Below are positions 1,612-22,313 of a stretch of DNA of 23,420 bases, piece by piece; position 1 is the first letter of the stretch; every line of letters starts with the position of its first letter. Source of the DNA: a virus. The stretch lies in the IMG/VR virus record IMGVR_UViG_3300027170_000003, positions 1-23,420 of that record; one strand, written 5' to 3'. The notes below the pieces were generated by a model. The model saw only the letters and a program-made list of their open reading frames with translations. It was not told where the DNA came from and searched no databases. The position numbers and the translations under genes were made by a program.

Positions 1612-1622
1612 ATTATTATATA

Positions 1623-2829: not shown

Positions 2830-2866
2830 ACTTTATATTATAAGTCATTTACATACACATTGCTAT

Positions 2867-5521: not shown

Positions 5522-5524
5522 ATA

Positions 5525-7363: not shown

Positions 7364-7366
7364 ATC

Positions 7367-8503: not shown

Positions 8504-8505
8504 TA

Positions 8506-9386: not shown

Positions 9387-9391
9387 ATCTA

Positions 9392-9829: not shown

Positions 9830-9858
9830 AATTTTCTGATAATTTTTTTAGAATTACT

Positions 9859-9888
9859 CAAAACTACGCAAAAATAGTAAATATACTA
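9859..9888 (-). promoter_or_regulatory. Possible promoter/operator between terminase and tail genes
   Basis: The 99-base gap holds two TAnnTTTG matches on the minus strand, TATTTTTG (9876-9869) and TAGTTTTG (9866-9859), and a 5-bp dyad TAGTA/TACTA at 9875-9888. No TTG lies at a convincing -33 distance (the nearest is about 25 bases upstream). It could start a tail transcript, but in DNA this AT-rich the match may be chance. Confidence 0.3.
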
Positions 9889-9928
9889 TGAAATATTTTC
9901 ACAATTTTTAAACAAACTGAAAAAAAGT

Positions 9929-11371
9929 TTAATTAAAGTAAACTACCTTACCTCCACCACCCCATATTTCCTTATTTACAGCCATAACTAAACAATCTAC
10001 CATATCATCATGTTTTGCTGCGGGAAACCTAGTAAGTTGGTCAAGAAACTCTCTATTCCAATCTCCATTAAGTAAACTAACTCTACCACTCTCAAGTGAT
10101 GCACTAATATCACTAACTCTCGCTACTTTGTCTTTTGTTGGTGGTTTATCTTCTTTTATATTAAGTCCTGTTTCTCTAACTAATGTTTGCACAATAGATT
10201 TACCTGATGCTTTAGGTTCTACAAATATTCTGCTTTTTGGAGTATATCCATTCTTTTTTACCCATTGAGGAATGAATTTAACAAGTTCTGGAAATTCTTT
10301 ATGTACATTAATACAATCTACTATCTGCCATTTGTTATCTTGATAGGTATATGCTAGTAGTGCTGATGGGTCATTCTTTTGATTTGCAGTATATGCAGGG
10401 TCAATAACAAAGTTTACTGTAGCCTCATCTTTTCTATATCTATCAATCTTAAACCAATCCTTATGAATCATACCACTATCTAAGGGTGTTGGTGTTTGTT
10501 GCAGTTGTCCTGCATAACCATAAGTACCTAATGCACTTTTATAATCATCTAATACTTCTTTACTAAATCTATCTTCCCAAAACAAGCCATTTTCTTTATT
10601 ATAGAACTTCTCTAGTGATTTTGGTTTGATATTACCATCTTCATTTGTTGCAGGTATGCAAATATGTTTATATTTTATTCTTGTTTCCCTATCTAACAAG
10701 AATCCACTTAAATCTTCTTCATGCACTCTTTGCATAATAATTATCCTTACTCCAATATCTGCTTGATTAAGTCTTGAGTAGAATGTTGTCCTATACCATT
10801 CATTAGCGTTCTCTCTTTCGGTTGCTGAGTTTGCCATTTGAGGTGATAGAGGGTCATCCACAATTAGGAAATCTCCACCCTGACCTGTTACAGTACCACC
10901 AACAGATGTTGCTCTTCTCATTCCAATATGATTATTCTCGTATCTCTCTTTTAAGTTCTGGTCTTTTTTAATGTGGAATACATCACCCCATCTTCTCTTA
11001 AACCAATCACTAAATATTATATCTCTTGATTTAGTTGCAAGTTCAATAGATAGTGCAGCAGAGTAAGAAGAAGTAATGAATCTTAGTTTAGGAGATTTTA
11101 TCCAAGCCCATACTGGAAACATAACAGTAACTATTAATGATTTCGTACTTCTAAATGGTACATTAATAATTATATCTTTAGTTTTTGGCTTTTGTGCTAT
11201 GATTCTCTCACATTCTTCTTGTAGCGTATCGCATATATATTTATGATGCCAATTAGTAGATAATGGTACGGCAGGTTCTACTACTATCCAAGCAGCCTTA
11301 AAGAACTCATAGAAACTCATCTCACAAAGTTTCTTTTGAAGTGCGAACTTTAATAATTTTTTATCAGTCAT
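9929..11371 (-). CDS. terL: Terminase large subunit (packaging ATPase/nuclease)
   Basis: 480 residues, a normal TerL length. The ATPase half shows a Walker A-like loop (PFRSTKS, about residues 72-78, a deviant form usual in TerL), a Walker B (FLIVDDP, 168-174) and a coupling motif region (MQRVHEEDLSG, 213-223). The nuclease half has the RNase H-like acids D324 in FVIDPAY, E385 in FVEPK and D455/D456/D459 in HDDMVD. TerL cuts concatemers and pumps DNA into the prohead. It overlaps the small subunit gene by 8 bases (GATGACTGA contains both start and stop), which indicates coupled translation. The C-terminus is Gly-rich (WGGGGKVVYFN). No portal gene follows, which is unusual. Confidence 0.95.
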   Translation of the reverse strand: MTDKKLLKFALQKKLCEMSFYEFFKAAWIVVEPAVPLSTNWHHKYICDTLQEECERIIAQKPKTKDIIINVPFRSTKSLIVTVMFPVWAWIKSPKLRFITSSYSAALSIELATKSRDIIFSDWFKRRWGDVFHIKKDQNLKERYENNHIGMRRATSVGGTVTGQGGDFLIVDDPLSPQMANSATERENANEWYRTTFYSRLNQADIGVRIIIMQRVHEEDLSGFLLDRETRIKYKHICIPATNEDGNIKPKSLEKFYNKENGLFWEDRFSKEVLDDYKSALGTYGYAGQLQQTPTPLDSGMIHKDWFKIDRYRKDEATVNFVIDPAYTANQKNDPSALLAYTYQDNKWQIVDCINVHKEFPELVKFIPQWVKKNGYTPKSRIFVEPKASGKSIVQTLVRETGLNIKEDKPPTKDKVARVSDISASLESGRVSLLNGDWNREFLDQLTRFPAAKHDDMVDCLVMAVNKEIWGGGGKVVYFN

Positions 11372-11780
11372 CTAATTCAGTAAAGTCAATATCTTCTGCA
11401 TCTTCAAGTCCTCTGATTTGATTTTTAATATCATCAAGTGTTGCACCTTCAGTTAAGTTAATCTCAATCTTAGTATCAGTATCTTTCTTAATCTCTGTAG
11501 ATGATAATTTAGGCATAGCATAGTTCATTAGTTTTGCTATTGCATCTATATATGCTCTAGGGTCTTCATCAAATAATATATCTAATGCCATCTTAATCTT
11601 TACAGGTTGTCCTTCTAAAGCATAAGCAAGTGATTTACGAGTCATCTTAGCCACTTGTCTTGCCTCATTGTTTTTAGGTATTAATGCCTTTGGAGTCTTA
11701 TTATAGTTCTCATCTATCTTACCAAGTTGAGGTCTTTTCTTCCTTGCCTCACTACCTAACTTCTTATCTTCTTCTTTCAT
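11364..11780 (-). CDS. terS: Probable terminase small subunit
   Basis: 138 residues with a Lys/Arg-rich N-terminus, a helical centre (RKSLAYALEGQPVKIKMALDILFDEDPRAYIDAIAKLMNYAMPKL) and an acidic C-terminal tail (GLEDAEDIDFTELDD). The centre resembles the small terminase proteins that precede TerL in Bacteroidota phages, and the immediate overlap with TerL supports DNA recognition for packaging. The start at 11780 is preceded by AACATAATATAATG. It is the first gene of the late operon and sits below the 670-base noncoding leader. The identification rests on position and general shape; no clear HTH can be seen by eye. Confidence 0.72.
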   Translation of the reverse strand: MKEEDKKLGSEARKKRPQLGKIDENYNKTPKALIPKNNEARQVAKMTRKSLAYALEGQPVKIKMALDILFDEDPRAYIDAIAKLMNYAMPKLSSTEIKKDTDTKIEINLTEGATLDDIKNQIRGLEDAEDIDFTELDD

Positions 11781-11838
11781 TATATTATGTTAAAGTCGCA
11801 AGATACAAAAATTATTTAAACTGCTTTCCTAATTATTA

Positions 11839-11858
11839 TATAAAATTGAACTTCTATT
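11839..11858 (-). repeat. 20-bp direct repeat, copy 1 (TATAAAATTGAACTT...)
   Basis: Plus-strand TATAAAATTGAACTTCTATT. It matches 12056-12075 at 19 of 20 positions in the same orientation, 217 bases away. This copy lies 59 bases upstream of terS and has no TAnnTTTG box at the spacing seen beside copy 2. Confidence 0.65.
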
Positions 11859-11905
11859 ATTTAACATTATTGTAAATTGTAAGAAAACTATGCAAAACTA
11901 TAATT

Positions 11906-11989
11906 TTAAACACCTATCTTCGTGCCTCTTATAAGAGTATATGTTATTCTTCCATTATACTTATAATCGCCACATCCTATAGTAAACAT
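11906..11989 (-). CDS. Possible 27-aa micro-ORF in the late leader
   Basis: Reads MFTIGCGDYKYNGRITYTLI plus seven residues. It has no membrane segment and alternates like two beta strands. A TACTTTG box (12010-12004) lies about 15 bases upstream of the ATG, one base short of the TAnnTTTG spacing. The reading frame contains the perfect 12-bp palindrome CTCTTATAAGAG (11926-11937). It could be a leader peptide, a tiny protein or chance. There are no homologues I recall. Confidence 0.28.
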   Translation of the reverse strand: MFTIGCGDYKYNGRITYTLIRGTKIGV

Positions 11990-12042
11990 TATTGCTCATA
12001 TCGCAAAGTATGTACCAACCTCCAAAATAAATGTTTATTCTA

Positions 12043-12050
12043 CAAACATA
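12043..12050 (-). promoter_or_regulatory. Candidate late promoter -7 box (TATGTTTG)
   Basis: TATGTTTG on the minus strand matches the Bacteroidota -7 consensus TAnnTTTG. No TTG is seen 17-23 bases upstream; the 20-bp direct repeat copy (12056-12075) occupies that position. This would fit an activator-dependent late promoter for the terminase-tail operon, with a leader of about 255 bases. The box is exact; its use is inferred. Confidence 0.42.
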
Positions 12051-12055
12051 GTATT

Positions 12056-12075
12056 TATAAAATTGAACTTGTATT
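12056..12075 (-). repeat. 20-bp direct repeat, copy 2, at -33 position of TATGTTTG
   Basis: Plus-strand TATAAAATTGAACTTGTATT, one mismatch from 11839-11858. It ends 5 bases upstream of the TATGTTTG box on the minus strand, so it covers the place where a -33 element would be. It may be a binding site for a phage transcription factor. Confidence 0.6.
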
Positions 12076-12138
12076 CTGTGTGTGTGCGTTTGGGTGGCTA
12101 AACAGTATATACTACTCGGTTTACGGAATCCAAAACAA

Positions 12139-12180
12139 AACCTTTTATTTAACCTTTTTTAAACCTTTTCAACATCTTTT
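12139..12180. repeat. Phased AACCTTTT repeats
   Basis: AACCTTTT occurs at 12139-12146, 12151-12158 and 12162-12169 (spacings of 12 and 11 bases), with a degenerate AACATCTTTT at 12171-12180. Spacing near one helical turn would put the copies on one face of the DNA, as in protein-binding iterons. Low complexity makes chance possible. Confidence 0.4.
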
Positions 12181-12452
12181 TAATAAAAAACTGTAAGAAT
12201 TGACACAAAACCAACTAAAAACTGTTTAAAGTTTGTAATATACTAGTAATTAACACTTTATGTTGATAAAATGTGTCTTTTTTTAGTGCAAAGTTGCTTA
12301 TAAAAAGAAAATTTGCCAATCATACAAAACAATTTAAACCTAATATAATCAACACTAATTAAAAACTAACTAAGTATTTAAGCGTTTTTAAAGGCTTTTA
12401 CTGTGCTTCTAGTGTCTTACTATTACTTATTTATTTAGATACATTAGAGCAT

Positions 12453-12480
12453 AAAAAAACCACTGTTTAAAGTGGCTTTA
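12453..12480 (-). terminator. Intrinsic terminator after the accessory-gene operon
   Basis: On the minus strand GCCACT and AGTGGT form a stem around a 6-base loop (five Watson-Crick pairs, then G-U and A-U pairs), followed by TTTTTTTATG. It lies 26 bases after the stop of the SH3-fold gene. In the plus-strand transcript the G-U pair would be an A-C mismatch, so the minus direction is preferred. Confidence 0.78.
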
Positions 12481-12505
12481 ATATATTGTATTTAATTTGC
12501 TTTAT

Positions 12506-12784
12506 CTATTCAATAGTATATACATTCTTATTGATTGTAAGAGTAAGCAAAGTATTAAAGTTTAACATTCTAAACTCTTTAATTCTCATATCGTATACAG
12601 GTAATAGATTATATTCTTTTGCTTTGTATGGTGCTTCTTTGCCTGTTTTACTCTTATATCTTTTGCCTAGTCTGGCTGTAAGCGTTCGTATTGTATTATC
12701 TTTTTTGATAAAGGTACTGCTAAAGATTTGCCCGTTTGTCTGGTGGATTAGTTCCTTCGCTTTGTCTGTGTTAATTGTTTCCAT
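12506..12784 (-). CDS. WYL_2-like (DUF2693) SH3-fold protein
   Basis: 92 residues. The order LIHQTNGQIFSSTFIKKDNTIRTLTARLGKRY, then APYKAKEYNLLPVYDMRIKEFRMLNFNTLLTLTI, matches the WYL_2/DUF2693 pattern common in Bacteroidota phages and mobile elements: an H/R-x-NG-x-F-x-V-x-F-x-KKDG-type start, a basic RLG strand, a VYD strand and an FRxxN strand. It is an SH3-like small beta barrel, presumably a nucleic-acid-binding or regulatory accessory factor; the true function is unknown. It is the last gene of its operon, with the terminator just downstream. The leader TTTAAACAATAAACAAACATGG carries the early A-rich motif. Confidence 0.75.
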   Translation of the reverse strand: METINTDKAKELIHQTNGQIFSSTFIKKDNTIRTLTARLGKRYKSKTGKEAPYKAKEYNLLPVYDMRIKEFRMLNFNTLLTLTINKNVYTIE

Positions 12785-12818
12785 GTTTGTTTATTGTTTA
12801 AAATTAGTATTTGTTTGC

Positions 12819-12908
12819 TTAACATCCAGAAGTTAGGATTGCTAAGATAAAAAGGATGGTTAACTGGGTATTACTCCAGTCAGACATCGGAAGTTGCCCT
12901 TTGCTCAT
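12819..12908 (-). CDS. 29-aa membrane micropeptide ending in Cys
   Basis: Sequence MSKGQLPMSDWSNTQ followed by LTILFILAILTSGC. A polar N-terminal half precedes one hydrophobic helix (about residues 16-26), and the last residue is Cys in a context (LTSGC) that looks like a lipobox placed at the very C-terminus. The ATG follows the stop of the upstream gene by one base (TAAGATG), which supports real, coupled translation. A membrane-acting accessory role such as superinfection exclusion is only a guess. Confidence 0.55.
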   Translation of the reverse strand: MSKGQLPMSDWSNTQLTILFILAILTSGC

Positions 12909-12909
12909 C

Positions 12910-13218
12910 TTATAAAGTTTTTAAATTAATATCTATTTTATTGCCGTTCCACTCTTTGCCGTTAAGATACCACACAAAGTTTTTTTGTCTTATATCTACA
13001 TTAGGTAAGGCGTTTAATCGTTCCTTTGTTGTATTGCTGAACCATCCACAATTGCTTATTGTAAGCGTTCGTTCTGGGTCGTTGTATCTGTATGCAATTG
13101 TATTATTATGTAGTTTTAAAATCGTAACATTTGGCAATACTTCAACAACAGTATTTTGTTTTTTAAATCTTTTAGCGTTCATAAATGCGTTAATTGATTC
13201 TTTAGTTATTTTTCTCAT
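12910..13218 (-). CDS. Conserved phage protein of unknown function
   Basis: 102 residues, basic. It begins MRKITKESINAFMNAKRFKKQNT and has a beta section (VEVLPNVTILKLHNNTIAYRY). Its most characteristic part is SISNCGWFSNTTKERLNALPNV-like (here LTISNCGWFSNTTKERLNAL), followed by QKNFVWYLNGKEWNG. I associate this GW-NTTKERLN-WYLNGKEW pattern with small proteins that recur in phages of Bacteroidota, without a known role. It lies among accessory genes between a 122-aa unknown and a membrane micropeptide. The leader is AACTAAAAACAATAAAAAAATG, the early motif. Confidence 0.8.
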   Translation of the reverse strand: MRKITKESINAFMNAKRFKKQNTVVEVLPNVTILKLHNNTIAYRYNDPERTLTISNCGWFSNTTKERLNALPNVDIRQKNFVWYLNGKEWNGNKIDINLKTL

Positions 13219-13231
13219 TTTTTTATTGTTT

Positions 13232-13600
13232 TTAGTTATTAATTGTTTTGTCTAGTTCTGGTTCTACATCTTCCCAAAATTTAGTTTCTCTTTGTCTTGA
13301 TGCGTGTAAACTTGCTAATGTCTCAGAGTTTATATTTTCTAAGGTAAAGCCGTATTCGGTTGCTATTTCTATACTCTCACTTAGTGAAGCATCATTTTCT
13401 TGTAAATATTTTATCGCTTTACTATAATAAATTATATCTACATTAAAAAATCCATTATCTTGCAATTCATCATAAATCTGATGTACATCGTAGCCATCTA
13501 ACTCATCAGAAATAAAATCTGTTGCATCTTCCCCCAAATGAATAAGGGTTAAATCTTGTAAAGTGTTTTTAATTAGTTCGTTTTTTGTTGTTGTGTCCAT
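13232..13600 (-). CDS. Acidic small phage protein, unknown function
   Basis: 122 residues, acidic and helical. It contains DEL DGYDVHQIYDELQDNGFF, then VDIIYYSKAIKYLQENDASLSESIEIATEYGF and ENINSETLASLHASRQ. The IIYY-x-KAI-x-YL-x-END-x-SL-x-ES-x-EIA pattern is one I associate with anonymous proteins in Bacteroidota phages and plasmids. The small acidic composition would suit a DNA-mimic or anti-defence role, but nothing specific supports this. Its stop (AATAACTAA) lies inside the A-rich leader of the next gene. Confidence 0.78.
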   Translation of the reverse strand: MDTTTKNELIKNTLQDLTLIHLGEDATDFISDELDGYDVHQIYDELQDNGFFNVDIIYYSKAIKYLQENDASLSESIEIATEYGFTLENINSETLASLHASRQRETKFWEDVEPELDKTINN

Positions 13601-13621
13601 TGTTTAAAGTTTTAAAGTTAG

Positions 13622-13849
13622 TTAATAGTTATTTTCTATAATTAAGATAGTAATTAATACAGTAGCAGCAAAGAAACAAACTAATGCAATATTATCAAGT
13701 ATTTTATTCCTTTTAATTCTCTTTTGCTCTGTTAAGTTTATAATATTATAATTTTGCACTTTGTTTTTCTTGAAAAAATTTGTTAATTCTTCCTCATTTA
13801 AAAAATAGTTTCTTTTGCTTTTCTTGTTTGTAATTTTGTAGTTGTTCAT
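13622..13849 (-). CDS. Small single-pass membrane protein
   Basis: 75 residues. The first 50 are very basic and polar (KITNKKSKRNYFLNEEELTNFFKKNK), then one clear membrane helix spans about 50-71 (ILDNIALVCFFAATVLITILII) before a short ENNY end. The topology by the positive-inside rule is a cytoplasmic N-terminus. No family is recognised. It shares the accessory operon and the leader TTAACTAAAAACTTTAAAACTATG with its neighbours. Confidence 0.7.
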   Translation of the reverse strand: MNNYKITNKKSKRNYFLNEEELTNFFKKNKVQNYNIINLTEQKRIKRNKILDNIALVCFFAATVLITILIIENNY

Positions 13850-13862
13850 AGTTTTAAAGTTT

Positions 13863-14090
13863 TTAGTTAATTTCTGTTAGTTCTGATAGTATTCCATCTA
13901 ACGCCAATTTATTAAGTATCGGTTTTAATGTTTTTGTACTCTTTACAATTACTGCGTTTTTCTCTAGGTTAAAATGCCCCCATCTGCCGAGCCATAAAGC
14001 GAACAAATCGCCTTCACCATCAAAAGAATTTTTTAATATAAGTGTTTCGCCATTCTTTAAGGCGTTTTTGTGTTCTGTTGTTAATATCAT
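13863..14090 (-). CDS. Small hypothetical protein
   Basis: 75 residues: MILTTEHKNALKNGETLILKNSFDGEGDLFALWLGRWGHFNLEKN, then a VIVKSTKTLKPILNKLAL helix. It is soluble, mixed alpha/beta and near neutral. No family is recognised. It starts 12 bases after a membrane micro-ORF and belongs to the small-gene operon read from the promoter at 14234-14264. Confidence 0.7.
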   Translation of the reverse strand: MILTTEHKNALKNGETLILKNSFDGEGDLFALWLGRWGHFNLEKNAVIVKSTKTLKPILNKLALDGILSELTEIN

Positions 14091-14101
14091 TGTTTTAGTT
14101 T

Positions 14102-14200
14102 TTAAAGGTTTATAAAATAAAGTATTGCCGCTGCTGGTAAACTTAAAAGATAAATTAAATCAAATAAGTTAGTTTTTGTGTTTTGTTGTTTTGTGTTCAT
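14102..14200 (-). CDS. 32-aa membrane micropeptide
   Basis: Reads MNTKQQNTKTNLFDLIYLLS plus LPAAAILYFINL. A polar N-terminus of about 11 residues is followed by one hydrophobic helix reaching the C-terminus. It is the first gene after the promoter at 14234-14264 and starts about 34 bases downstream of the -7 box. It carries the early leader (AACTAACTAAAAACTTTAAACACTATG). Its stop precedes the next ATG by 11 bases. The context makes it a likely real gene; the function is unknown. Confidence 0.55.
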   Translation of the reverse strand: MNTKQQNTKTNLFDLIYLLSLPAAAILYFINL

Positions 14201-14233
14201 AGTGTTTAAAGTTTTTAGTTAGTTATTATGATG

Positions 14234-14264
14234 CAAATATACACCTTTTTAACAATTACAACAA
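14234..14264 (-). promoter_or_regulatory. Flavobacterial-type promoter for the small-gene operon
   Basis: TATATTTG on the minus strand (14241-14234) is an exact TAnnTTTG -7 box. TTG elements lie 17 and 20 bases upstream (14261-14259 and 14264-14262), within the 17-23 spacing known for Bacteroidota. It sits at the edge of the gene-free region and faces the accessory operon. Confidence 0.78.
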
Positions 14265-14339
14265 AAATGTGTAAAAAGATTATTTTTTTTTCTACTCTAG
14301 TAAAACACGCTTTTTTTAAAGTTTTTTTAAAATGATGTA

Positions 14340-14409
14340 TTTTTTATGGTGCTTTTTTACCTCTTTTTTTACTGCTTATATTGAAAAAGTGTTTTTTTAT
14401 GGTGCTTTT
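14340..14409. repeat. 17-bp direct repeat TTTTTTATGGTGCTTTT, two copies
   Basis: Exact copies at 14340-14356 and 14393-14409, 53 bases apart, upstream of the promoter at 14234-14264 in transcription terms. The core ATGGTGC is not low complexity, so duplication or a paired binding site is more likely than chance. Confidence 0.6.
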
Positions 14410-14613
14410 GTTGGTTGGTTGGTGCTGCTCAATTTTAGAGGTTAAAAATTTGCAATAGATAGAACGCGTATGCGAATAACAAAATATTTTAATTATACTA
14501 ATATTTTAAAATAAAGTTATTAACAATTTAATTTTTTAAAAAGTAGGTGCGAAAATTAGAAAAGAAGAAACAAAAATAAAATCTCACTCAAAATCTCCTA
14601 GCCAATATACCTA

Positions 14614-14686
14614 GCAGTTTCAGGGCAGTTTCAACAGCAGTTTCACCGAGCAGTTTCGGTGGCAGTTTCAAAACAGAAACAGTTTC
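14614..14686. repeat. Iteron-like GCAGTTTC array
   Basis: GCAGTTTC occurs at 14614, 14625, 14637, 14650 and 14662, with ACAGTTTC at 14679, giving spacings of 11, 12, 13, 12 and 17 bases. A 6-bp hairpin CACCGA/TCGGTG (14644-14661) encloses one copy, and the last copy is part of a near-palindrome GAAACAGTTTC. Phasing close to a helical turn fits cooperative protein binding. The array lies directly after the VRR-NUC stop codon. Confidence 0.72.
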
Positions 14687-14706
14687 AAGAAAAGTTTTTT
14701 AGGAAA

Positions 14707-15060
14707 TTATTTTATTTTCATATACCAATCAAGGACATCCATACATTCTTCAAGTCCTTTAACTACCTTAGCATAGTATCCTTCTTCATTGAGGTCAGCA
14801 ACCCATTGCTTTTGTTCTTTGGATGGATAGCAGGTCTTATCTGCTTTAATCTCTAGGAATAGTCCTGCATACTCACTATTGACTTTACATATTTGCATAT
14901 CGGGGAAGCCTTTAACATAGCCAGTTTTCTTGGCTAGTATTGCTTGTTTCATGGAGGTTCTTATACCACCTAGTGAGGCACAGTATCTTAGATTAGGGTA
15001 GGTATATTTTATATAGGTGCAGAATGAGGATTGGACTAATGCTTCTTTCTTCATAGCCAT
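14707..15060 (-). CDS. VRR-NUC domain nuclease
   Basis: 117 residues, the typical length of stand-alone phage VRR-NUC proteins. The order is an N-terminal helix, ASLGGIRTSMKQAILAKKTG, then GFPDMQI (D54), GLFLEIKADK (E70, K72), a Ser-x-x-Q helix (PSKEQKQWVADL, Q83) and GYYAKVVKGLEE. These are the PD-(D/E)XK catalytic acids and lysine. The family acts on branched DNA or in replication and repair. An alternative ATG two codons later (15054) gives a two-residue shorter protein. The ATG follows six runs of G on the coding strand (a seventh lies further upstream), which may affect its translation. Confidence 0.9.
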   Translation of the reverse strand: MAMKKEALVQSSFCTYIKYTYPNLRYCASLGGIRTSMKQAILAKKTGYVKGFPDMQICKVNSEYAGLFLEIKADKTCYPSKEQKQWVADLNEEGYYAKVVKGLEECMDVLDWYMKIK

Positions 15061-15061
15061 A

Positions 15062-15125
15062 CCCCCTATGCCCCCTTATGCCCCCTATGCCCCCTATGCT
15101 TACCCCCTACACCCCTTGTTCCCCC
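15062..15125 (-). repeat. Seven C-runs (G-runs on coding strand), possible G-quadruplex
   Basis: C tracts of 4-5 at 15062-66, 15071-75, 15081-85, 15090-94, 15103-107, 15112-115 and 15121-125 form an irregular tandem repeat of about 9-10 bases (CCCCCTATG). On the minus strand and in the mRNA these are G runs separated by loops of 4-8 bases, easily enough for a quadruplex. The array covers the C-terminal codons of the HTH gene, its stop and the leader of the VRR-NUC gene. Confidence 0.8.
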
Positions 15126-15338
15126 ATCAGTATAGGTCTTACCCTTTATTAGTTGGTACATTAAAGGTTGTGATACGCTATACTTCCTAGCAAGAGATGA
15201 GATAGTTATCTTCTCTGTAGCAGTAGTGTATTCTTCTCTGATAGCATCTGCCTCAGCAACAGTAAACTTTCTTCTGGAGTAACCACCACCTCTACTATCT
15301 TTTCTATCTTCTATTCTTATCTTTCTAATCTTTGGCAT
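15066..15338 (-). CDS. Small HTH DNA-binding protein
   Basis: 90 residues, basic. After an Arg-rich N-terminus (KIRKIRIEDRKDSRGGGYSRRK), residues about 46-67 form a helix-turn-helix (ISSLARKYSVSQPLMYQLIKG). The last 20 residues (GGTRGVGGKHRGHRGHKGA) are a low-complexity Gly/Arg/His tail produced by the G-run repeat, so the tail may be a repeat expansion that slid into the gene. It may be a regulator or a DNA-binding partner of the nuclease encoded just downstream. The repeat makes tail length likely to vary among relatives. Confidence 0.7.
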   Translation of the reverse strand: MPKIRKIRIEDRKDSRGGGYSRRKFTVAEADAIREEYTTATEKITISSLARKYSVSQPLMYQLIKGKTYTDGGTRGVGGKHRGHRGHKGA

Positions 15339-15341
15339 AAT

Positions 15342-15602
15342 CTAATATTCATCTTCAAACCTATCAGTAGTTTCACCATATTGATTTTCAATATCAATAC
15401 TTGTAATTATAACATCTACTTTATGTAGGTTCTTTTTATTTATGTAACAAATTCTATCTATTAATTCTTGGTCGCTCTCTATTTCTTTAATGTTAGATGT
15501 AAGAACAAATGTATCTAGTATTCCTGTAATTGCTTTTCTAGTTACAACTTTTTTATTCTTTATCTCGTAAGATACAAATACTCTAAAGATTGGTTTTTTC
15601 AT
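15342..15602 (-). CDS. Hypothetical protein
   Basis: 86 residues, alternating strands and helices. It begins MKKPIFRVFVSYEIKNKKVVTRKAITGIL, has a helical part IKEIESDQELIDRICYINKK and a strand KVDVIITSIDI, and ends in an acidic tail. No family is recognised. It overlaps the DUF3310-like gene upstream by 20 bases, and 3 bases separate its stop from the HTH gene, which suggests it belongs to the same operon. Confidence 0.68.
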   Translation of the reverse strand: MKKPIFRVFVSYEIKNKKVVTRKAITGILDTFVLTSNIKEIESDQELIDRICYINKKNLHKVDVIITSIDIENQYGETTDRFEDEY

Positions 15603-15903
15603 TTTTAATTTTATCTAACTCAAACTCTAGGTGGTTAATAGCCTTCTGTATGCAATCAACACTTGTATCGTGCTTACGCTTTGCTCTCATCAGATATGTA
15701 CAGGCAGTACCGATATTATAGGATAAATCAAAATCCTCTACAACTTTCCTAGCCTCATATCCATAAACTCTACCAATGTAATAGTTTGGAGTTTTATCTT
15801 TACTGTAATCTACTTTATCTTCTACCACCTCATTTTGCCAAGTAGTAGTTGGAGTCCATCCATTCCTTCCTTTATCGTTATAATATTTATTATGCTTTGT
15901 CAT
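15583..15903 (-). CDS. DUF3310-like (SaV-type) protein
   Basis: 106 residues. Residues about 40-100 fit the DUF3310 pattern: a Tyr-containing start (YYIGRVYGYEARKVVEDFDLSYNIGTACTYLMRAKRKH) followed by a helix that ends the domain (CIQKAINHLEFELDKI). Members are common in phage early regions and are often annotated as nucleotide-kinase-like, but no biochemical activity is proven to my knowledge. The first 35 residues are polar and rich in Asn, Thr and Trp. It overlaps the upstream micro-gene by 14 bases. Confidence 0.75.
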   Translation of the reverse strand: MTKHNKYYNDKGRNGWTPTTTWQNEVVEDKVDYSKDKTPNYYIGRVYGYEARKVVEDFDLSYNIGTACTYLMRAKRKHDTSVDCIQKAINHLEFELDKIKNEKTNL

Positions 15904-16036
15904 TTAATTTATCTATATTTTTTTTTAACTTCTCATTCTCTTGTCTTGCTATCTTATCCTCAACATAGCATAAAGCAAATATATATAAAATCACAACACC
16001 AACAATCATTAAAGCACCAATAGTTGCACTATTCAT
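15890..16036 (-). CDS. 48-aa membrane/coil micropeptide
   Basis: An ATG at 16036 (or 16039, one residue longer) overlaps the end of the upstream gene. Residues about 6-24 are one membrane helix (IGALMIVGVVILYIFALCY), followed by a charged helix (VEDKIARQENEKLKKNIDKL) that could be a coiled coil. The C-terminus overlaps the next gene by 14 bases. Tight overlaps on both sides make it a likely gene. Phage Rz/spanin-like or membrane-anchor roles are possible, but the context is early genes, not lysis. Confidence 0.6.
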   Translation of the reverse strand: MNSATIGALMIVGVVILYIFALCYVEDKIARQENEKLKKNIDKLNDKA

Positions 16037-16205
16037 CATTTAATATTTTTAAGAGTTGATGGCATGTATATATCCTATCATCACCTGCATAGTTTTCGTA
16101 TATCATTGTAAAGTTGTCATTCTTCCAAGTCCATAAAGACTTTACTCCAGTCTTAATGTGATGCTTCAATACACTCTTGATTGTCTTATAAGTTCTTTTC
16201 CCCAT
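16029..16205 (-). CDS. 58-aa hypothetical protein
   Basis: MGKRTYKTIKSVLKHHIKTGV, then KSLWTWKNDNFTMIYENYAGDDRIYTCHQLLKILNDE. A frame open further upstream would allow ten more residues, but the ATG at 16205 lies one base after the stop of the preceding micro-gene (TAATATG), so that start is chosen. Aromatic strands and a C-terminal helix are visible; no family is recognised. Confidence 0.6.
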   Translation of the reverse strand: MGKRTYKTIKSVLKHHIKTGVKSLWTWKNDNFTMIYENYAGDDRIYTCHQLLKILNDE

Positions 16206-16206
16206 A

Positions 16207-16341
16207 TTATTTTTGATTTTTATACCAAACCCCATAACCTTTTGCTTTACCAGTAAATGGAACTTTTTTAAGTATTACTAATTCTTCTTCCTTATCCTTT
16301 TTATACTTAGGATTCTTACTATTTAATTTTCGTTTCTTCAT
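16207..16341 (-). CDS. 44-aa basic micropeptide
   Basis: MKKRKLNSKNPKYKKDKEEE, then LVILKKVPFTGKAKGYGVWYKNQK. It is very Lys-rich, which suggests nucleic-acid or ribosome contact, but this is a guess. The leader AAATAAACAATATG carries the early A-rich motif, and its stop is one base from the next ATG. Upstream lies a structured noncoding stretch (16359-16447). Confidence 0.55.
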   Translation of the reverse strand: MKKRKLNSKNPKYKKDKEEELVILKKVPFTGKAKGYGVWYKNQK

Positions 16342-16358
16342 ATTGTTTATTTAATAAG

Positions 16359-16447
16359 CATAGTGGGGGTTAGAAAAAAAAAGGAATATTAACGCTTAGG
16401 GGTTTCAGAGTATCCCCATTGTTGTTATTATTATTTATCCCCACTAT
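16359..16447 (-). other. Structured stretch with competing G4/C4 tracts
   Basis: ATAGTGGGG (plus 16360-16368) and CCCCACTAT (16439-16447) are exact reverse complements, 70 bases apart. Between them lie a second pair, GGGG/CCCC (16409-16412 and 16424-16427), and a T9 run on the transcript. The RNA could switch between a long-range stem and local hairpins. This is a transcript leader between a micro-ORF and the 44-aa gene. No known riboswitch class is recognised. Confidence 0.4.
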
Positions 16448-16523
16448 ACTCATCTTCTATTAATACAGAGCAGAAATAGGCTTCTAGCACACAAGCGATT
16501 ATAACCACTCCCCATATTATCAT
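16431..16523 (-). CDS. 30-aa membrane micropeptide
   Basis: Reads MIIWGVVIIACVLEAYFCSV plus LIEDEYSGDK. A hydrophobic helix at residues 1-20 ends in an acidic tail. A GTG at 16535 would add four residues. The ATG lies about 17 bases after the TATATTTG box at 16540-16547, so this is the first gene of that transcript, with a very short leader. The last codons overlap one arm of the G/C-tract inverted repeat. Confidence 0.48.
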   Translation of the reverse strand: MIIWGVVIIACVLEAYFCSVLIEDEYSGDK

Positions 16524-16539
16524 AAATGTTTTCACAATG

Positions 16540-16572
16540 CAAATATATAAAAATATTTCAATTTTATACAAA
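16540..16572 (-). promoter_or_regulatory. Flavobacterial-type promoter
   Basis: TATATTTG (16547-16540, minus strand) is an exact TAnnTTTG box, with TTTG 21 bases upstream (16572-16569). It begins just after the stop of the DnaC-like gene and faces the micro-gene/DUF3310/VRR-NUC operon. Confidence 0.72.
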
Positions 16573-17148
16573 TTAATTCCTAAAACTTTTTCCCTTGATA
16601 ATCACCACTTTACACTTCCTCAACCTATCTAAAGTCCTTTCATCATATCTTTCTTTAAGTGCTTGAGGTGTTAAATTTGTAGTTATTAGTAATGTTTTAG
16701 AACTATCCTCAGCATAAGAAATTGCATCAGCAACTGCATCTATCTTAGTACCATAATCATTTTTAATACTCTCAGTACCTAAGTCATCAATGATAATGAA
16801 TGGTGCTTTATTTCTATCAACTGCACCTAATTCTTTTGCAGGAACGCTTCTTAATATCTTATTTGTTCTAGTCCTAAATATAGCAGGAATAACAAAGTTT
16901 AAGATAGTTGATTTACCTAATCCACATTCCCCCATCAACATCAATCCTCTACCTTTTGTATCTACCATCCAGTCAATAATCTCATCATAAGCAGGTAAAT
17001 GCTCATACTTTTCAACTGTTCTATCGTAATACTCAAAAGACTTAATGAACATTTCTTTTATTTCTTCTCTTACTCCTAGTTTATATCTGTTGTAAACCTT
17101 TGGCTGCAGGAAGTCTGCATTTTTAAATGTATCTTCTATTGTTCTCAT
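16573..17148 (-). CDS. DnaC/IstB-like helicase loader ATPase
   Basis: 191 residues. Walker A GECGLGKST at 73-81, Walker B FIIIDDLG at 117-124, a sensor-1 stretch LLITTN at 153-158, and arginine-finger candidates in YDERTLDRLRK (168-178) make it an AAA+ protein of the DnaC/IstB type, with a shorter N-terminus than bacterial DnaC. Such proteins load the replicative helicase. No helicase gene is seen in the window, so it would act on the host DnaB or on one encoded outside. It starts 3 bases after the replisome-organizer-like gene stops, consistent with a replication pair. Confidence 0.9.
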   Translation of the reverse strand: MRTIEDTFKNADFLQPKVYNRYKLGVREEIKEMFIKSFEYYDRTVEKYEHLPAYDEIIDWMVDTKGRGLMLMGECGLGKSTILNFVIPAIFRTRTNKILRSVPAKELGAVDRNKAPFIIIDDLGTESIKNDYGTKIDAVADAISYAEDSSKTLLITTNLTPQALKERYDERTLDRLRKCKVVIIKGKSFRN

Positions 17149-17151
17149 AGT

Positions 17152-17775
17152 TTAAAATTTACCATCACCATAATCTCCTCCTTTTTTATGTCTGTGTGAT
17201 GTAGTGTTATTGTTATTAGTTTTATTTTGTCTTTTCTCCCAAGTCCTTACACAAGCCTTCCAATCTTTCATTTTGTTTTTACCTATCAACCAATTTTTAC
17301 TCTCATAGAAATCAAAAAAAGTTTCTGCATCAATACCATTATTCCTCCATAAACAATATTCTTTAATATCATTAACTTCTGGTTTTTTAAAAGAAACCCC
17401 TTTATTATTAATATGTTTATCTTTAGATAAACTAATACTATCTTTAAAGTTTTCTTTAATACCCCCCTTAAAGTTTTCTTTAACACCCCCTTTAAGTTTT
17501 CTTATATACCTCCTTTCAATTTCTTTAGTATTTCCTTTATAGATGTAATGAGTTGATATGTAGCCATTTGCAACTAATTCACTTACCCATTTAGAAATAG
17601 TAACAGTACTCTTACCATAAAGGTTAGAAAAGTATTTATTTGTGGCAAAGCACTCACCATTAATATTAAGTAGTGCAGTTATTTCAGCATATAATAATTT
17701 AGCATTTGCAGTTAGATTCTTATCATATCTAACCTCAGCACTTATTATAGCATAGTAGTTTGGTTGTTCTTTCAT
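17152..17775 (-). CDS. Replisome-organizer-like replication protein
   Basis: 207 residues. Residues about 1-90 are a winged helix of the phage replication-initiator type (YAIISAEVRYDKNLTANAKLLYAEI at the start, GECFATNKYFSNLYGKSTVTISKWVSELVANGYI as the recognition part). A linker holds a repeated GGVKENFK/GGIKENFK, and the C-terminal half includes ESKNWLIGKNKMKDWKACVRTWEKR, typical of DnaD-like and phage organizer proteins. It should bind the origin and recruit the loader encoded next. The C-terminus is Asn/His/Gly-rich low complexity. Confidence in the role is high; no partner is shown directly. Confidence 0.83.
   Translation of the reverse strand: MKEQPNYYAIISAEVRYDKNLTANAKLLYAEITALLNINGECFATNKYFSNLYGKSTVTISKWVSELVANGYISTHYIYKGNTKEIERRYIRKLKGGVKENFKGGIKENFKDSISLSKDKHINNKGVSFKKPEVNDIKEYCLWRNNGIDAETFFDFYESKNWLIGKNKMKDWKACVRTWEKRQNKTNNNNTTSHRHKKGGDYGDGKF
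17444..17490 (-). repeat. 24-bp tandem repeat in the linker of the replication gene
   Basis: TTAAAGTTTTCTTTAA followed by a T/C, an A and a run of C repeats at 17444 and 17468 (24-base unit, two full copies plus a partial third at 17491). It encodes the eight-residue repeat GGVKENFK/GGIKENFK. The C runs are unusual in this AT-rich DNA. Confidence 0.75.
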
Positions 17776-17786
17776 TGTTTTTAGTT

Positions 17787-18296
17787 TTAGTTATTTTTTG
17801 GTATCTCTAGTTCATAGCACTCTGTATAGGTGGACATAACTACAGTCCATTCACTTACCTGTTCGTGAGTAAACCAACAAAATCTTGCGTATAAGGCGTT
17901 CAATGGCTGTATGAACAAATAGTGCGTAATTTTCTTTTTAGGGTTGTTATGGGCTTTAAAATTAACTCTAAGCGTATTTCCACCACTTTTTACGCCTTTA
18001 ACATCAATGTAGTTTAACTCACCAATGCCTTCCATAATTAAGTCAGCCTCAACAACTGGTCTTTGCTCAAGTAGTGGTGCAGCCTTGTATCTTATACCTT
18101 TATTGTTCTCCATCAGATGCCTTGCAATAAGTTCTGCAAATATTCCTAACTGAGAGATAGAGTGTTCTTGTTTACCTCTATATTTTTCTGTGTTTTTATT
18201 ATAAACATCAGCAGACAACATACTCCTTACCTTAGCAAGTTCATCAGATAGTTTGATGAAAGTGCTAGGATAAGTTGTTTTTTTCCATTTAATCAT
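17787..18296 (-). CDS. PD-(D/E)XK nuclease (putative)
   Basis: 169 residues. E55 in a helix (GIFAELIARHL), D85 in VVEADLI and D98-V-K100 in YIDVK match the PD-(D/E)XK order (E ... D ... DxK). These folds are seen in Holliday-junction resolvases and phage exonucleases; which one this is cannot be settled by eye. The C-terminus has two beta segments (HYLFIQPLNALYARFCWFT). Its ATG shares one base with the stop of the SSB-like gene (TAATG), so the two are coupled and probably act together in recombination or repair. Confidence 0.75.
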   Translation of the reverse strand: MIKWKKTTYPSTFIKLSDELAKVRSMLSADVYNKNTEKYRGKQEHSISQLGIFAELIARHLMENNKGIRYKAAPLLEQRPVVEADLIMEGIGELNYIDVKGVKSGGNTLRVNFKAHNNPKKKITHYLFIQPLNALYARFCWFTHEQVSEWTVVMSTYTECYELEIPKNN

Positions 18297-18571
18297 TAGA
18301 ATGGTAAGTCATCATCTGTTTTTGCTGTAGACTTCTTAGCAGCAGTTGGCTTAGAATCTTTTGGTGGCTCATAAGTATTTACATAAGCATAATGAGTTGC
18401 ACCCTTTTCAGATGGTTCTCTCCTTTCTGAAATCACCATAGAAACCCAACCATTCTTTGAGTTTGCTTGTAGTTCATCCATCTTAAAGTTAGCAACCATC
18501 ATTGTACCATACTTCGTATCAATATTTTTGATACTACTTGGCAAGTAAACCTTCTCTTTCTTGTCTGTCAT
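18296..18571 (-). CDS. SSB-like protein with DDDLPF tip
   Basis: 91 residues. A beta-rich front half (VYLPSSIKNIDTKYGTMMVANFKMDELQ, then SMVISERRE and HYAYVNTYEP) is followed by a Pro/Lys/Ala linker. The last six residues are DDDLPF, the acidic tip that single-stranded DNA-binding proteins use to recruit partners. The front half is short for an OB fold but fits small phage SSBs in Bacteroidota. It overlaps the DnaA-like gene by 38 bases and is coupled to the nuclease gene downstream. I infer that it coats ssDNA and docks recombination enzymes. Confidence 0.72.
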   Translation of the reverse strand: MTDKKEKVYLPSSIKNIDTKYGTMMVANFKMDELQANSKNGWVSMVISERREPSEKGATHYAYVNTYEPPKDSKPTAAKKSTAKTDDDLPF

Positions 18572-18974
18572 TTTTTGATTTTTTAATTTTATATAATTTA
18601 GTTAATGATTCGCTGATTTGTTTTAATTGAGTTTCTAGTCCTAATATTTCTTCATCCACCTCAACTTCAATAACCCTATCTTCTACTCTTTTAAAAGCAT
18701 CAGTATCTTCTGGATAGTTATTGTAAAAGAACTCAAACTTTCTTGTGTGGTGTATAATAGAGGCATGATGTAGGTTTGTTACTCTACCTATCTCGCTAAG
18801 AGTTAATCCAAACATCTCTCTTAATATGTAGATATACATTCTCTTAGCAAATATAATGTTTTTCTTTCTACTACCCAAAAACATTTCCTCCTGTTTAATG
18901 TTATAAATATCTGCTAATTCTTTTGTAATTACATTGTGGTAGTAATCACTAAATTTTAATCTTCTTCTTCTCAT
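18534..18974 (-). CDS. DnaA domain IV-like DNA-binding protein
   Basis: 146 residues without an AAA+ domain. Residues about 18-80 resemble the DnaA C-terminal domain: LADIYNIKQEEMFLGSRKKNIIFAKRMYIYIL, then GLTLSEIGRVTNLHHASIIHHTRK, whose last part matches the HxSxxxHxxRK signature of the DnaA-box-binding HTH. The C-terminal third is a charged helix (EVDEEILGLETQLKQISESLTKLYKIKK), possibly a coiled coil for dimerisation. A DNA-binding domain alone can mark an origin or block host DnaA; neither is shown. A near DnaA box is noted at 14518-14526. Confidence 0.85.
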   Translation of the reverse strand: MRRRRLKFSDYYHNVITKELADIYNIKQEEMFLGSRKKNIIFAKRMYIYILREMFGLTLSEIGRVTNLHHASIIHHTRKFEFFYNNYPEDTDAFKRVEDRVIEVEVDEEILGLETQLKQISESLTKLYKIKKSKNDRQEREGLLAK

Positions 18975-18986
18975 TTTGTTATAATT

Positions 18987-19229
18987 TTAATTTAAGTCGT
19001 ACACTATTGTATCAACTATGTCTTGTGTTTTTAATCCAATAAAGTCTGCTAATGTTTTAGCGTGAATGAATCTAAGTGATGGTGGATTCTCTATAAACTT
19101 TCTACTTGTAGCGTAATTAACTCCAAGTATCTTACAAAGTTTTAAATTAGACACACCATATATTCTTAGTAGAGCCTCAAACTCATTTCTGGATTCTCTG
19201 ATTTGTACTAATGTATATTTATTTGTCAT
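18987..19229 (-). CDS. Small Cro/CI-type HTH protein
   Basis: 80 residues. Residues about 25-65 show a helix-turn-helix: VSNLKLCKILGVNYATSRKFIENP, then a third helix (LRFIHAKTLADFIGLKTQDIV). The first helix is preceded by an EFEALLRIYG segment. It may be a repressor of the early operon. Its ATG lies inside the last codons of the preceding gene (11-base overlap), so the genes are co-translated. Confidence 0.72.
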   Translation of the reverse strand: MTNKYTLVQIRESRNEFEALLRIYGVSNLKLCKILGVNYATSRKFIENPPSLRFIHAKTLADFIGLKTQDIVDTIVYDLN

Positions 19230-19434
19230 CTCTCTTTATGTATTTTTCAATCTTAGATTTCTCAACTTTAAATTTAGTTTTACCAACATGATAAAAATCT
19301 ATAAGTTGTTGCTTGTCTAACATCTTCATCATATCATCCTCAACAATCTCACCCAAAAGGTGTTTCTTGTTCCATATAATATAAGTGTAGGTTTTTAAAA
19401 AGTGATTAAAAATCTCTATGTCCAAACACTCCAT
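19219..19434 (-). CDS. Small excisionase-like/HTH protein (weak)
   Basis: 71 residues from the ATG at 19434 (MECLDIEIFNHFLKTYTYIIW). Earlier in-frame starts at 19476 and 19488 would add up to 18 residues but overlap the upstream gene by 71-83 bases. The C-terminal part (MLDKQQLIDFYHVGKTKF, then VEKSKIEKYIKR) faintly resembles an excisionase-type HTH. The 29-base overlap with the gene above is normal in this operon. The family is uncertain. Confidence 0.55.
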   Translation of the reverse strand: MECLDIEIFNHFLKTYTYIIWNKKHLLGEIVEDDMMKMLDKQQLIDFYHVGKTKFKVEKSKIEKYIKRDDK

Positions 19435-19672
19435 CTTTGCACATTTTTTCCCATTGTTTTCTTGTGTCTTTTTCATATCTGTTTTCATATATTTTAGTTA
19501 TTATTTCTTCTGCTTCTAGTTCTGTTAAATCATTTATTCTTCCTAGAATATCAGATTTCATTGTTTCTGTAAAAGATGTTAGGTCAATGTTACTCTCAAT
19601 GATAAGCCATTGGGTATCTGTAATACCACTAGGCTCACCATCAAGAATATTATCTATCCAATCATCAGTCAT
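19406..19672 (-). CDS. Hypothetical acidic protein
   Basis: 88 residues. It begins MTDDWIDNILDGEPSGITDTQW and continues with helical charged stretches (LGRINDLTELEAEEIITKIYENRY, then KDTRKQWEKMCKDG). No family is recognised. Its ATG shares a base with the stop of the 177-aa gene (TAATG). It may be a partner of the annealing-type protein because of this coupling; nothing else supports a role. Confidence 0.65.
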   Translation of the reverse strand: MTDDWIDNILDGEPSGITDTQWLIIESNIDLTSFTETMKSDILGRINDLTELEAEEIITKIYENRYEKDTRKQWEKMCKDGVFGHRDF

Positions 19673-20205
19673 TAATCTACAATCTCATCCTGACCAAATA
19701 CTCCTTGCTCATAGAATCCTGCAATCTTTAAAACAACTCTACTCATTGCTCTCTTTTCTGCCATAGCAACAGGGAACTTCTTACCACCTCCCATTAAGTT
19801 ATTGTCAGATGCTTCTCCAAAACTCATAGCGTTCTTAACCTCATTACCAACCTTCATTGATGCTGCTGCTCTTAATACGCATATTCCTTTTTCTATATCC
19901 ATATTGATTACTTCATAAGCAACTGTAATATTGTTTCTTGATACAATCTTATCAATTCCAGTTCTTGTGATAACTACAAATCCTCTCTTGTCTTTGTAAA
20001 TATCTTCTTCTACTAAACCATTCTCTTTGTACATCCTTCTTAAAGCCTCTTTTCTTGTTTCTACAATTGGCTCAGGTTGTTTTCTTAATTTTTCTTGCAT
20101 TGTTTTTTTTGACATTTTGTTATTATTTAATTGATTAATACTCGGTTCTTGTTGAGCAAGTTCTTCTTGCTTCATTTGCATAAATTCTTCTTTCATTCTT
20201 CCCAT
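19672..20205 (-). CDS. Possible single-strand annealing/recombination protein
   Basis: 177 residues. A helical charged N-terminus (about 1-45) with alternative starts at M11 and M31 is followed by KRGFVVITRTGIDKIVSRNNITVAYEVINMD, then ICVLRAAASMKVGNEVK and AMSFGEASDN, and the C-terminal VAMAEKRAMSRVVLKIAGFYEQGVFGQDE. The last stretch (AEKRAxSRVVLKIAG) recalls Erf/Sak/Rad52-type phage annealing proteins, in which a similar basic helix is conserved. That link is from memory and moderate. Its position two genes after a 54-aa ORF at the head of the early operon, with an SSB-like protein downstream, fits recombination. Confidence 0.5.
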   Translation of the reverse strand: MGRMKEEFMQMKQEELAQQEPSINQLNNNKMSKKTMQEKLRKQPEPIVETRKEALRRMYKENGLVEEDIYKDKRGFVVITRTGIDKIVSRNNITVAYEVINMDIEKGICVLRAAASMKVGNEVKNAMSFGEASDNNLMGGGKKFPVAMAEKRAMSRVVLKIAGFYEQGVFGQDEIVD

Positions 20206-20217
20206 AATTTTATAGTT

Positions 20218-20298
20218 TTAGTTAGTTATTTTGTCTTGTTGGACAATGTAGATAATCATAAGTATTATGATTGTAGGTACTGCGATTAGTGTTTCCAT
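20218..20298 (-). CDS. 26-aa membrane micropeptide
   Basis: Reads METLIAVPTIIILMIIYIVQ plus QDKITN. One hydrophobic helix spans about residues 4-20. It is preceded by the early leader (AACTAAAACAATAAACTAAATGG), and its stop TAA lies in the leader of the next gene, so the layout is that of a real operon member. It is too short to assign a role. Confidence 0.5.
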   Translation of the reverse strand: METLIAVPTIIILMIIYIVQQDKITN

Positions 20299-20301
20299 TT
20301 A

Positions 20302-20323
20302 GTTTATTGTTTTAGTTATTAAT
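20302..20323 (-). repeat. Early-gene leader motif, representative copy
   Basis: GTTTATTGTTTTAGTT on the plus strand is identical at 20302-20317 and 20478-20493. On the minus strand it reads AACTAAAACAATAAAC just before an ATG. Related leaders precede at least ten early genes between 12782 and 20500 (see the separate finding). It is A-rich and contains no Shine-Dalgarno. Confidence 0.6.
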
Positions 20324-20476
20324 TTCTTCCCATAGAATTTGTGTTATTTCACACAACTCAAGCCCATCTTCATCCTGTAATATGTCTGGGTACATTCCAT
20401 TTAGATACCATTCACTAACTACATTAAGAACTTCTTGTTCAGTTAGTTTTAATCTTTTAATTATATCTTCTTCCAT
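20312..20476 (-). CDS. 54-aa acidic protein, first gene of the early operon
   Basis: MEEDIIKRLKLTEQEVLNVV, then SEWYLNGMYPDILQDEDGLELCEITQILWEEINN. It is helical and acidic with no membrane segment. It is the first ORF downstream of the consensus promoter (the -7 box is 29 bases before the ATG), so it is probably among the first phage products made. Small acidic first-early proteins are often host-takeover or anti-defence factors, but this is context inference only. Confidence 0.6.
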   Translation of the reverse strand: MEEDIIKRLKLTEQEVLNVVSEWYLNGMYPDILQDEDGLELCEITQILWEEINN

Positions 20477-20504
20477 TGTTTATTGTTTTAGTTGTTAATT
20501 GAGG

Positions 20505-20537
20505 CAAAGATATAAAATTGGAATTACCCACCAAAAC
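20505..20537 (-). promoter_or_regulatory. Early promoter (flavobacterial type)
   Basis: TATCTTTG (20512-20505, minus strand) is an exact TAnnTTTG box, with TTTTG at 20536-20532, 19 bases upstream. The box is 29 bases from the ATG of the 54-aa gene. This is the best promoter in the window and should drive the replication operon. Confidence 0.8.
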
Positions 20538-21844: not shown

Positions 21845-22123
21845 TTATTTTTTACAATTACCAGTACAATTACATTTATTTTTTTCAAATACAGAGAAAC
21901 ATAATGGTAAAACACCTAACCCTGTAAGTATCAAAGCATTAGTATCAATACCATTTTTCTCAATGTATAAACTTGCAGCAATTACTATCACTCCACTAAT
22001 GGTTCTTTTACTACTCCATTTACCTTTAGTGTCTGTAAAAAGTTCTTTTACTGCCTTCAATAATTCTGTTATTGGTTTTACGCCACCCTTTAGCAGCACT
22101 CCCCCTATCCATTTCTGAAACAC
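21845..22123 (-). CDS. Holin-like two-TM protein, GTG start
   Basis: 92 residues. A basic, amphipathic N-terminal part (to about residue 40) is followed by TM1 (about 42-55, ISGVIVIAASLYIE), a short polar turn and TM2 (about 63-79, ALILTGLGVLPLCFSVF). It ends in a Cys-rich basic tail (EKNKCNCTGNCKK). Two TMs of this size next to an endolysin suit a class II holin, which makes holes for the endolysin. There is no in-frame ATG. The GTG overlaps the TAG of the 53-aa gene by one base (TAGTG), so translation is coupled. The Cys cluster at the C-terminus is unusual for a holin. Confidence 0.65.
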   Translation of the reverse strand: MFQKWIGGVLLKGGVKPITELLKAVKELFTDTKGKWSSKRTISGVIVIAASLYIEKNGIDTNALILTGLGVLPLCFSVFEKNKCNCTGNCKK

Positions 22124-22284
22124 TATTTCTTCTTGTTGTATTTAGGAACAATAGCATCAATGATAGTGTCTAACCATCCAAAGATTTTGTTGTCTTTTTC
22201 TGTTGGAGTTAAATTAGTAACAACTTTCGCAAAAGCCATTATTCCAACTAATAATTCTAGCCAATTTTCTGTAATAAAATTCAT
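22123..22284 (-). CDS. 53-aa lysis-cassette partner
   Basis: MNFITENWLELLVGIMAFAK, then VVTNLTPTEKDNKIFGWLDT and IIDAIVPKYNKKK. A short hydrophobic N-terminus with a basic tail resembles the small proteins beside holins in Bacteroidota phages; the LTPT-x-KD-x-x-x-GWLD motif is one I recall from them. It may be an antiholin or a holin partner. It ends at TAG, which overlaps the GTG of the holin-like gene. Confidence 0.62.
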   Translation of the reverse strand: MNFITENWLELLVGIMAFAKVVTNLTPTEKDNKIFGWLDTIIDAIVPKYNKKK

Positions 22285-22313
22285 AATATATATTTAATTA
22301 GTTAATATTCTGT

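Follow-up and report, generated by a model that had tools for sequence, protein, structure and literature searches.

Layout of the record and copies of the leader

We examined a short A-rich leader that recurs before start codons in IMGVR_UViG_3300027170_000003, a 23.4-kb virus record with nearly all of its genes on the minus strand. The window analyzed was the whole 23,420-nt stretch, positions 1 to 23,420 of the record. Its source is a marine siphophage of flavobacteria, and cultivated flavobacterial phages are the best matches of its TerL (9929-11371), with Croceibacter phage P2559Y at 45% identity. Positions 1-11780 carry terS/terL and the tail genes, 12.5-14.2 kb hold a block of small genes, and a replication block at 14.7-20.5 kb encodes DnaC-like, replication initiation, DnaA C-terminal domain, and VRR-NUC proteins; exonuclease and endolysin genes are also encoded. 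Genes are called early when non-structural and late when structural, classes assigned from gene content and not from expression timing.

The core of the leader, the 8-mer AACTAAAA, occurred in 11 minus-strand copies versus one plus-strand copy. Ten of the 11 minus-strand copies were located within 25 nt of a start codon and covered nine genes, with exact matches before the starts at 20476, 20298, 20205, 19488, 17775 (twice), 14200, 14090, 13849, and 13218; the copies away from starts were at 1525 (minus strand) and 12213 (plus strand). Such leaders preceded 9 of 24 non-structural starts versus 0 of 10 structural starts, whereas among ATGs that are not starts the 8-mer was found before 1 of 568 on the same strand and 0 of 302 on the plus strand. 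An 8-mer common to nine leaders exceeded all 400 dinucleotide shuffles (mean 4.1, largest 7). The repeated leader is thus real, and it is specific to the phage lineage.

The first-pass annotation of this DNA had listed a 16-mer, AACTAAAACAATAAAC, as identical at 20478-20493 and 20302-20317 of the minus strand, and this was confirmed. All leaders described here lie on the minus strand. The leader of gene 20312-20476 (54 aa), the first gene after a promoter, occupies 20477-20500 and reads AATTAACAACTAAAACAATAAACA-ATG, agreeing with the 17-nt form TAACTAAAACAATAAAC at 16 of 17 positions; that of the 26-aa gene 20218-20298 (METLIAVPT...; leader 20299-20322) agrees at all 17. The product of the latter gene is membrane-like, falls below the usual length of open reading frame lists, and is kept behind the leader in many relatives. 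Further AACTAAAA copies are held by the leaders of gene 19672-20205 (20206-20229), of the replication-initiation-like gene 17152-17775 (17776-17799, two tandem copies), of the small gene 14102-14200, again first after a promoter (14201-14224), of gene 13863-14090 (14091-14114, at the −10 position), of gene 13622-13849 (13850-13873), and of gene 12910-13218 (phrog_554; 13219-13242). As the annotation had also observed, the upstream gene often ends inside the element (AAC TAA), namely, before the starts at 20298 (..EINN*), 20205 (..KITN*), 17775 (..PKNN*), 13849 (..TEIN*), and 13218 (..TINN*).

The claim of close forms at further starts was correct in part. Exact AACTAAAA was present at 20205, 17775, 14200, 14090, 13849, and 13218, but two other listed starts had looser forms alone: gene 12506-12784 (leader 12785-12808) has ...TTTAAACAATAAACAAAC, 13 of 17 to TAACTAAAACAATAAAC, and gene 13232-13600 (leader 13601-13624) has TAACTAACTTTAAAACTTTAAACA, 11 of 17. 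Start 16341, preceded by only AATAAACAAT, is to be dropped from the set. The copy before 19488 (19489-19512) is probably not a free leader, because it lies within the upstream coding sequence 19406-19672.

Conservation in relatives and fit to host initiation rules

Conservation was assessed in 341 related viral loci collected by five protein scans. In the loci from the first three of these, AACTAAAA was present in 265 of 3658 distinct start contexts versus 12.7 expected, the highest ratio among common 8-mers in start leaders. In 4 Mb, the exact 16-mer TAACTAAAACAATAAA had 68 occurrences, and the proteins encoded behind it fell into at least five unrelated clusters, whereas three permuted words did not occur. 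Leaders with AACTAAAA preceded 444 distinct proteins in 167 clusters, whereas control words of comparable composition preceded 93-250. Among distinct ortholog leaders, the share carrying the 8-mer was 78% for 20205 and 21-30% for 20476, 17775, 13849, and 19488, and was near zero for the window's structural genes, 9386 (15%) being the exception. A pattern scan over all viral contigs returned, among the matches listed, mostly single ones and gives no measure of spread. The cultivated flavophage lillamy9-1 had five AACTAAAA leaders, all non-structural, and a literature search, itself incomplete, found no description of such a leader in flavobacterial phages. Other repeated elements were seen at starts as well: locus L295 (Croceibacter phage P2559S) has a different start-leader word, AACCGAGAGC, at 4-5 starts, or at 3 non-structural starts in a separate count, and loci L405, L406, and L383 have a GGGG(G)...CCCC(C) hairpin (AGGGGGTGTAAAAACCCCC and similar) directly before some small-gene starts.

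In Flavobacterium johnsoniae, A at −14 to −11, −6, and −3 is associated with better initiation and helps to bring it about (Baez et al. 2019, PMC6847099). Replacing −14 to −11 of the EF-Tu leader lowered reporter output by 60-90% in that bacterium, and bS1 has been proposed as the contact of the upstream A-run (PMC6847099). In the phage leaders, AACTAAAA mostly starts at −20 to −17 relative to the ATG, with a second mode at −11/−10; the main peak therefore places AAAA on −16 to −10, on or beside −14 to −11. The early-leader profile of the family had A at 79-87% at −13 to −11, about 80% at −5 to −3 (79% at −3), and 63% at −6, whereas G stayed at 1-3% almost throughout −18 to −1. The minimum free energy predicted for −30 to +30 was 0 for most early leaders, with a mean of −0.6 in early versus −2.0 in late ones. 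Hence the comparison of position-specific A content that the first-pass annotation had proposed turned out as the host rule wants, with A enriched at −14 to −11 and −3.

We consider it likely that the element is the phage lineage's version of the flavobacterial translation initiation region, with an effect on translation that we infer from these features. Host 30S subunits do not rely on Shine-Dalgarno pairing; the A-run at about −14 to −11 and the additional A near −5 to −3, within a stretch of mRNA almost free of G and of structure, would let them start efficiently at the next ATG without help from upstream ribosomes. The 5′ part, AATAACTAA, often provides the preceding gene with its stop codon, which makes for compact gene-leader-gene units. 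Such leaders would serve where strong independent initiation is needed, that is, at many small early genes, at first operon genes, and at the putative major capsid gene of relatives described below, whereas the structural genes of the window, which mostly abut the previous gene, would probably be translated by coupling.

Several results weigh against this interpretation. In ten Flavobacteriaceae genomes (33.5 Mb), TAACTAAAAC-N4-10-ATG had 18 matches versus 67 for a reversed control. A matrix of the host initiation region separated early from late leaders weakly (mean of group medians 5.3 versus 3.8, P = 0.07), and fit to the host rule alone therefore fails to explain why the word recurs. Moreover, spacing to the ATG varies by a few nucleotides, and the −11/−10 mode does not fit the −14 to −11 rule. 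The same pattern had 13 matches versus 0 for the reversed control in 19 phage records (~0.65 Mb), and host start sites near EF-Tu showed the general A rule with AACTAAAA at just 1.2%. The lack of enrichment in the ten genomes speaks against a host origin of the word; for this reason, the leader is regarded as the lineage's own version of the host A-rich region. It shares with the A-rich, Kozak-like region of Bacteroidota (F. johnsoniae; PMC6847099) the A at −14 to −11 and −3, the absence of a Shine-Dalgarno sequence, and little structure, but differs in its longer, near-fixed word TAACTAAAACAATAAAC.

The choice of start codons by Bacteroidota ribosomes, which do without Shine-Dalgarno pairing, is understood only in part, and a lineage with one leader word before many unrelated proteins and, as a variant, before the capsid gene offers naturally selected strong initiation regions to study, as well as candidate parts for flavobacterial expression tools.

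The early/late contrast and alternative explanations

The first-pass annotation had regarded the element as absent from late genes, which would have TATA-rich leaders instead, and as a possible class-specific translation signal. Within the window the absence held, as given above. However, the starts at 5521, 7363, 8503, and 9386 follow the upstream stop codon at a distance of 5-8 nt, counted from its first base, so that their "leaders" are mostly coding sequence, and in the corresponding ortholog groups the median upstream stop was at −2 to −6, so that no leader fits. Late genes of the window thus lack the element largely because they abut the preceding gene, and abutting or overlapping neighbors likewise explain its absence from many replication genes. 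When only leaders with room were counted, AACTAAA was found in 85 of 425 on the early side versus 2 of 136 orthologs of the window's late genes (Fisher P = 3e-9, an optimistic value given that the sequences are related). TATA-rich leaders did not hold up as a class signal in the window, where TAATATA occurred in 4 of 10, within the range of shuffles (P about 0.1); in relatives, AATATA was commoner in late ortholog groups. The leader of gene 22123-22284, AATATATATT-ATG (22285-22305), was strictly conserved across relatives. The three-frame stop property of leaders showed no excess in early versus late genes (0.19 versus 0.21).

Absence from late genes did not extend to the family. To the right of the window edge, relatives encode a 335-aa protein with leaders such as TTTAATAACTAAAAAATAAATAAAA-ATG, whose form in relatives is TAA[C/T]TAAAA. 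Among 16 distinct leaders of this gene, AA[C/T]TAAA was present in 100% and AACTAAA in 44%, with A at −14 to −11 in 100% and at −3 in 94%. Among 20 members of this protein's group, 19 were assigned to a PHROG virion structural family; both matches of a PDB search were capsid proteins, although weak (E 0.04), and the fold matches of its AlphaFold model, itself poor (pLDDT 44), were capsid proteins too. Taken together, these data make the major capsid protein its most likely identity. Like this gene, two further virion-region genes outside the window had equal or stronger A-rich leaders, reaching 98% and 100%. An early-only rule accordingly fails at the relatives' capsid gene, and because that gene carries the same kind of leader, the leader would mark strong independent initiation in both classes rather than a temporal class. 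The C-containing form (TAACTAAAAC..TAAAC) was nevertheless commoner in early genes. Of the proposed class-specific signal, one part is supported: the element behaves like a translation-initiation signal suited to a host without Shine-Dalgarno pairing. Specificity to the early class is not supported, given the capsid gene and the two virion-region genes. It is a warning that early and late leader classes can be artefacts of gene packing and of the site at which a contig is cut.

A stronger form of the class signal, in which a phage or host factor recognizes the word and switches the translation of the early genes together, in the manner of T4 RegA and its roughly 30 early mRNAs, appears unlikely. 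The word is more specific than the host rule, recurs before unrelated genes, and has a non-structural bias among leaders with room, and RegA operators are likewise A+U-rich, unstructured, and overlap or adjoin the AUG of many early mRNAs (PMC3014915). Yet the relatives' capsid gene has the leader, and RegA targets have no clear common word. A search for the RegA family (PF01818) matched none of 19 records but none of the control genomes either, and is therefore uninformative. The bS21 proteins encoded by Bacteroidota phages (PMC9723584) pose the same question of steering ribosomes that ignore Shine-Dalgarno sequences; bS21 was considered as a partner and found in none of 20 related records. 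It is somewhat less doubtful, though still improbable, that TAACTAAAACAATAAAC, a word not favored by host genomes, is read by a specific factor that gives these phage mRNAs an edge over those of the host; the factor could be encoded by the phage or be a host protein, for example bS1. If so, Bacteroidota would have an initiation enhancer that is sequence-specific and does not depend on Shine-Dalgarno pairing.

In arrangement, the leader resembles the start-associated sequence (SAS) known from mycobacteriophages of cluster K (Pope et al. 2011, PMC3203893), also a short asymmetric repeat just upstream of many unrelated starts, mostly outside the structural module (here, within the window) and kept while genes change. 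The SAS consensus GGGATAGGAGCCC, however, is G-rich and unrelated, whereas the flavophage leaders are nearly G-free; an ESAS-like inverted repeat was not seen here, and the relatives' capsid gene also carries the leader. As it shares neither the consensus nor the non-structural restriction, the flavophage leader is not a member of the SAS.

Swappable small genes are flanked by near-identical copies of the leader, and the leaders for this reason often border gene gain and loss. That they are kept alike mainly as short homologies for the exchange of early cassettes, with any translational role secondary, is improbable. In favor of this explanation, alignment ends against relatives fell at motif leaders for 40 of 144 distinct positions versus 15 expected (P = 0.005) and for 28 of 57 versus 11 expected (P = 0.016), and the promoter-proximal leader is constant while the gene behind it varies among many proteins. 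But alignment ends are concentrated at motif-free starts as well (over all starts at 14.6-20.1 kb, 59 versus 16); gene boundaries in general are therefore sites of exchange, and exchange leaves the distance to the ATG and the scarcity of G unexplained. Judged from these alignments, the leaders often form the borders of gene cassettes, which does not imply that they cause exchange. T4-type phages have promoter early stem-loop (PeSL) cassettes (Arbiol 2010 and Comeau 2014, cited in PMC4503421), which are similarly repeated regulatory stretches at the borders of shuffled genes; they consist of an early promoter and a stem-loop, whereas 8 of 10 copies here lack a promoter and no stem-loop is present.

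A DNA element repeated before each gene, be it a promoter, an initial transcribed region, or an operator, is very improbable. Two copies do lie directly downstream of flavobacterial −7-type promoter elements on the minus strand: TATCTTTG (20505-20512), which precedes the 20476 transcription unit, begins 36 nt before the start at 20476, and has TTG upstream, and TATATTTG (14234-14241), found by a promoter-element scan for the 14200 unit. The other eight of the ten motif leaders have no such element nearby; their copies are operon-internal, often overlap the upstream stop codon, and keep their distance to the ATG and not to a promoter. A role in mRNA is therefore favored. Least probable of all is plain composition, that is, A-rich spacers of an AT-rich phage with common words due to chance or recent duplication: late leaders are similar in A content (0.50), and eight cultivated flavophages follow the A rule with no repeated word clearly above shuffles, but the shuffles of the window leaders, the permuted words, the strand asymmetry, and conservation across divergent relatives all speak against it.

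Further features of the window

No Rfam family matched within the window. Between the terS start and gene 12506-12784, about 700 bp (11800-12500) hold no clear gene and contain a terminator-like hairpin at 12456-12479. Direct repeats around GCAGTTTCA, in about six copies, occupy 14609-14699 inside a non-coding gap of 500 bp that separates two transcription units and could be iterons or an origin. Although the phage is AT-rich, 15060-15125 of the minus strand is a G-rich tandem repeat of GGGGGCATA units, which encodes the C terminus of gene 15066-15338 (RGHRGHKGA) and doubles as the leader of the VRR-NUC gene starting at 15060. The ortholog leaders of this gene scored −11.5 on the host initiation matrix and have a Shine-Dalgarno-like look.

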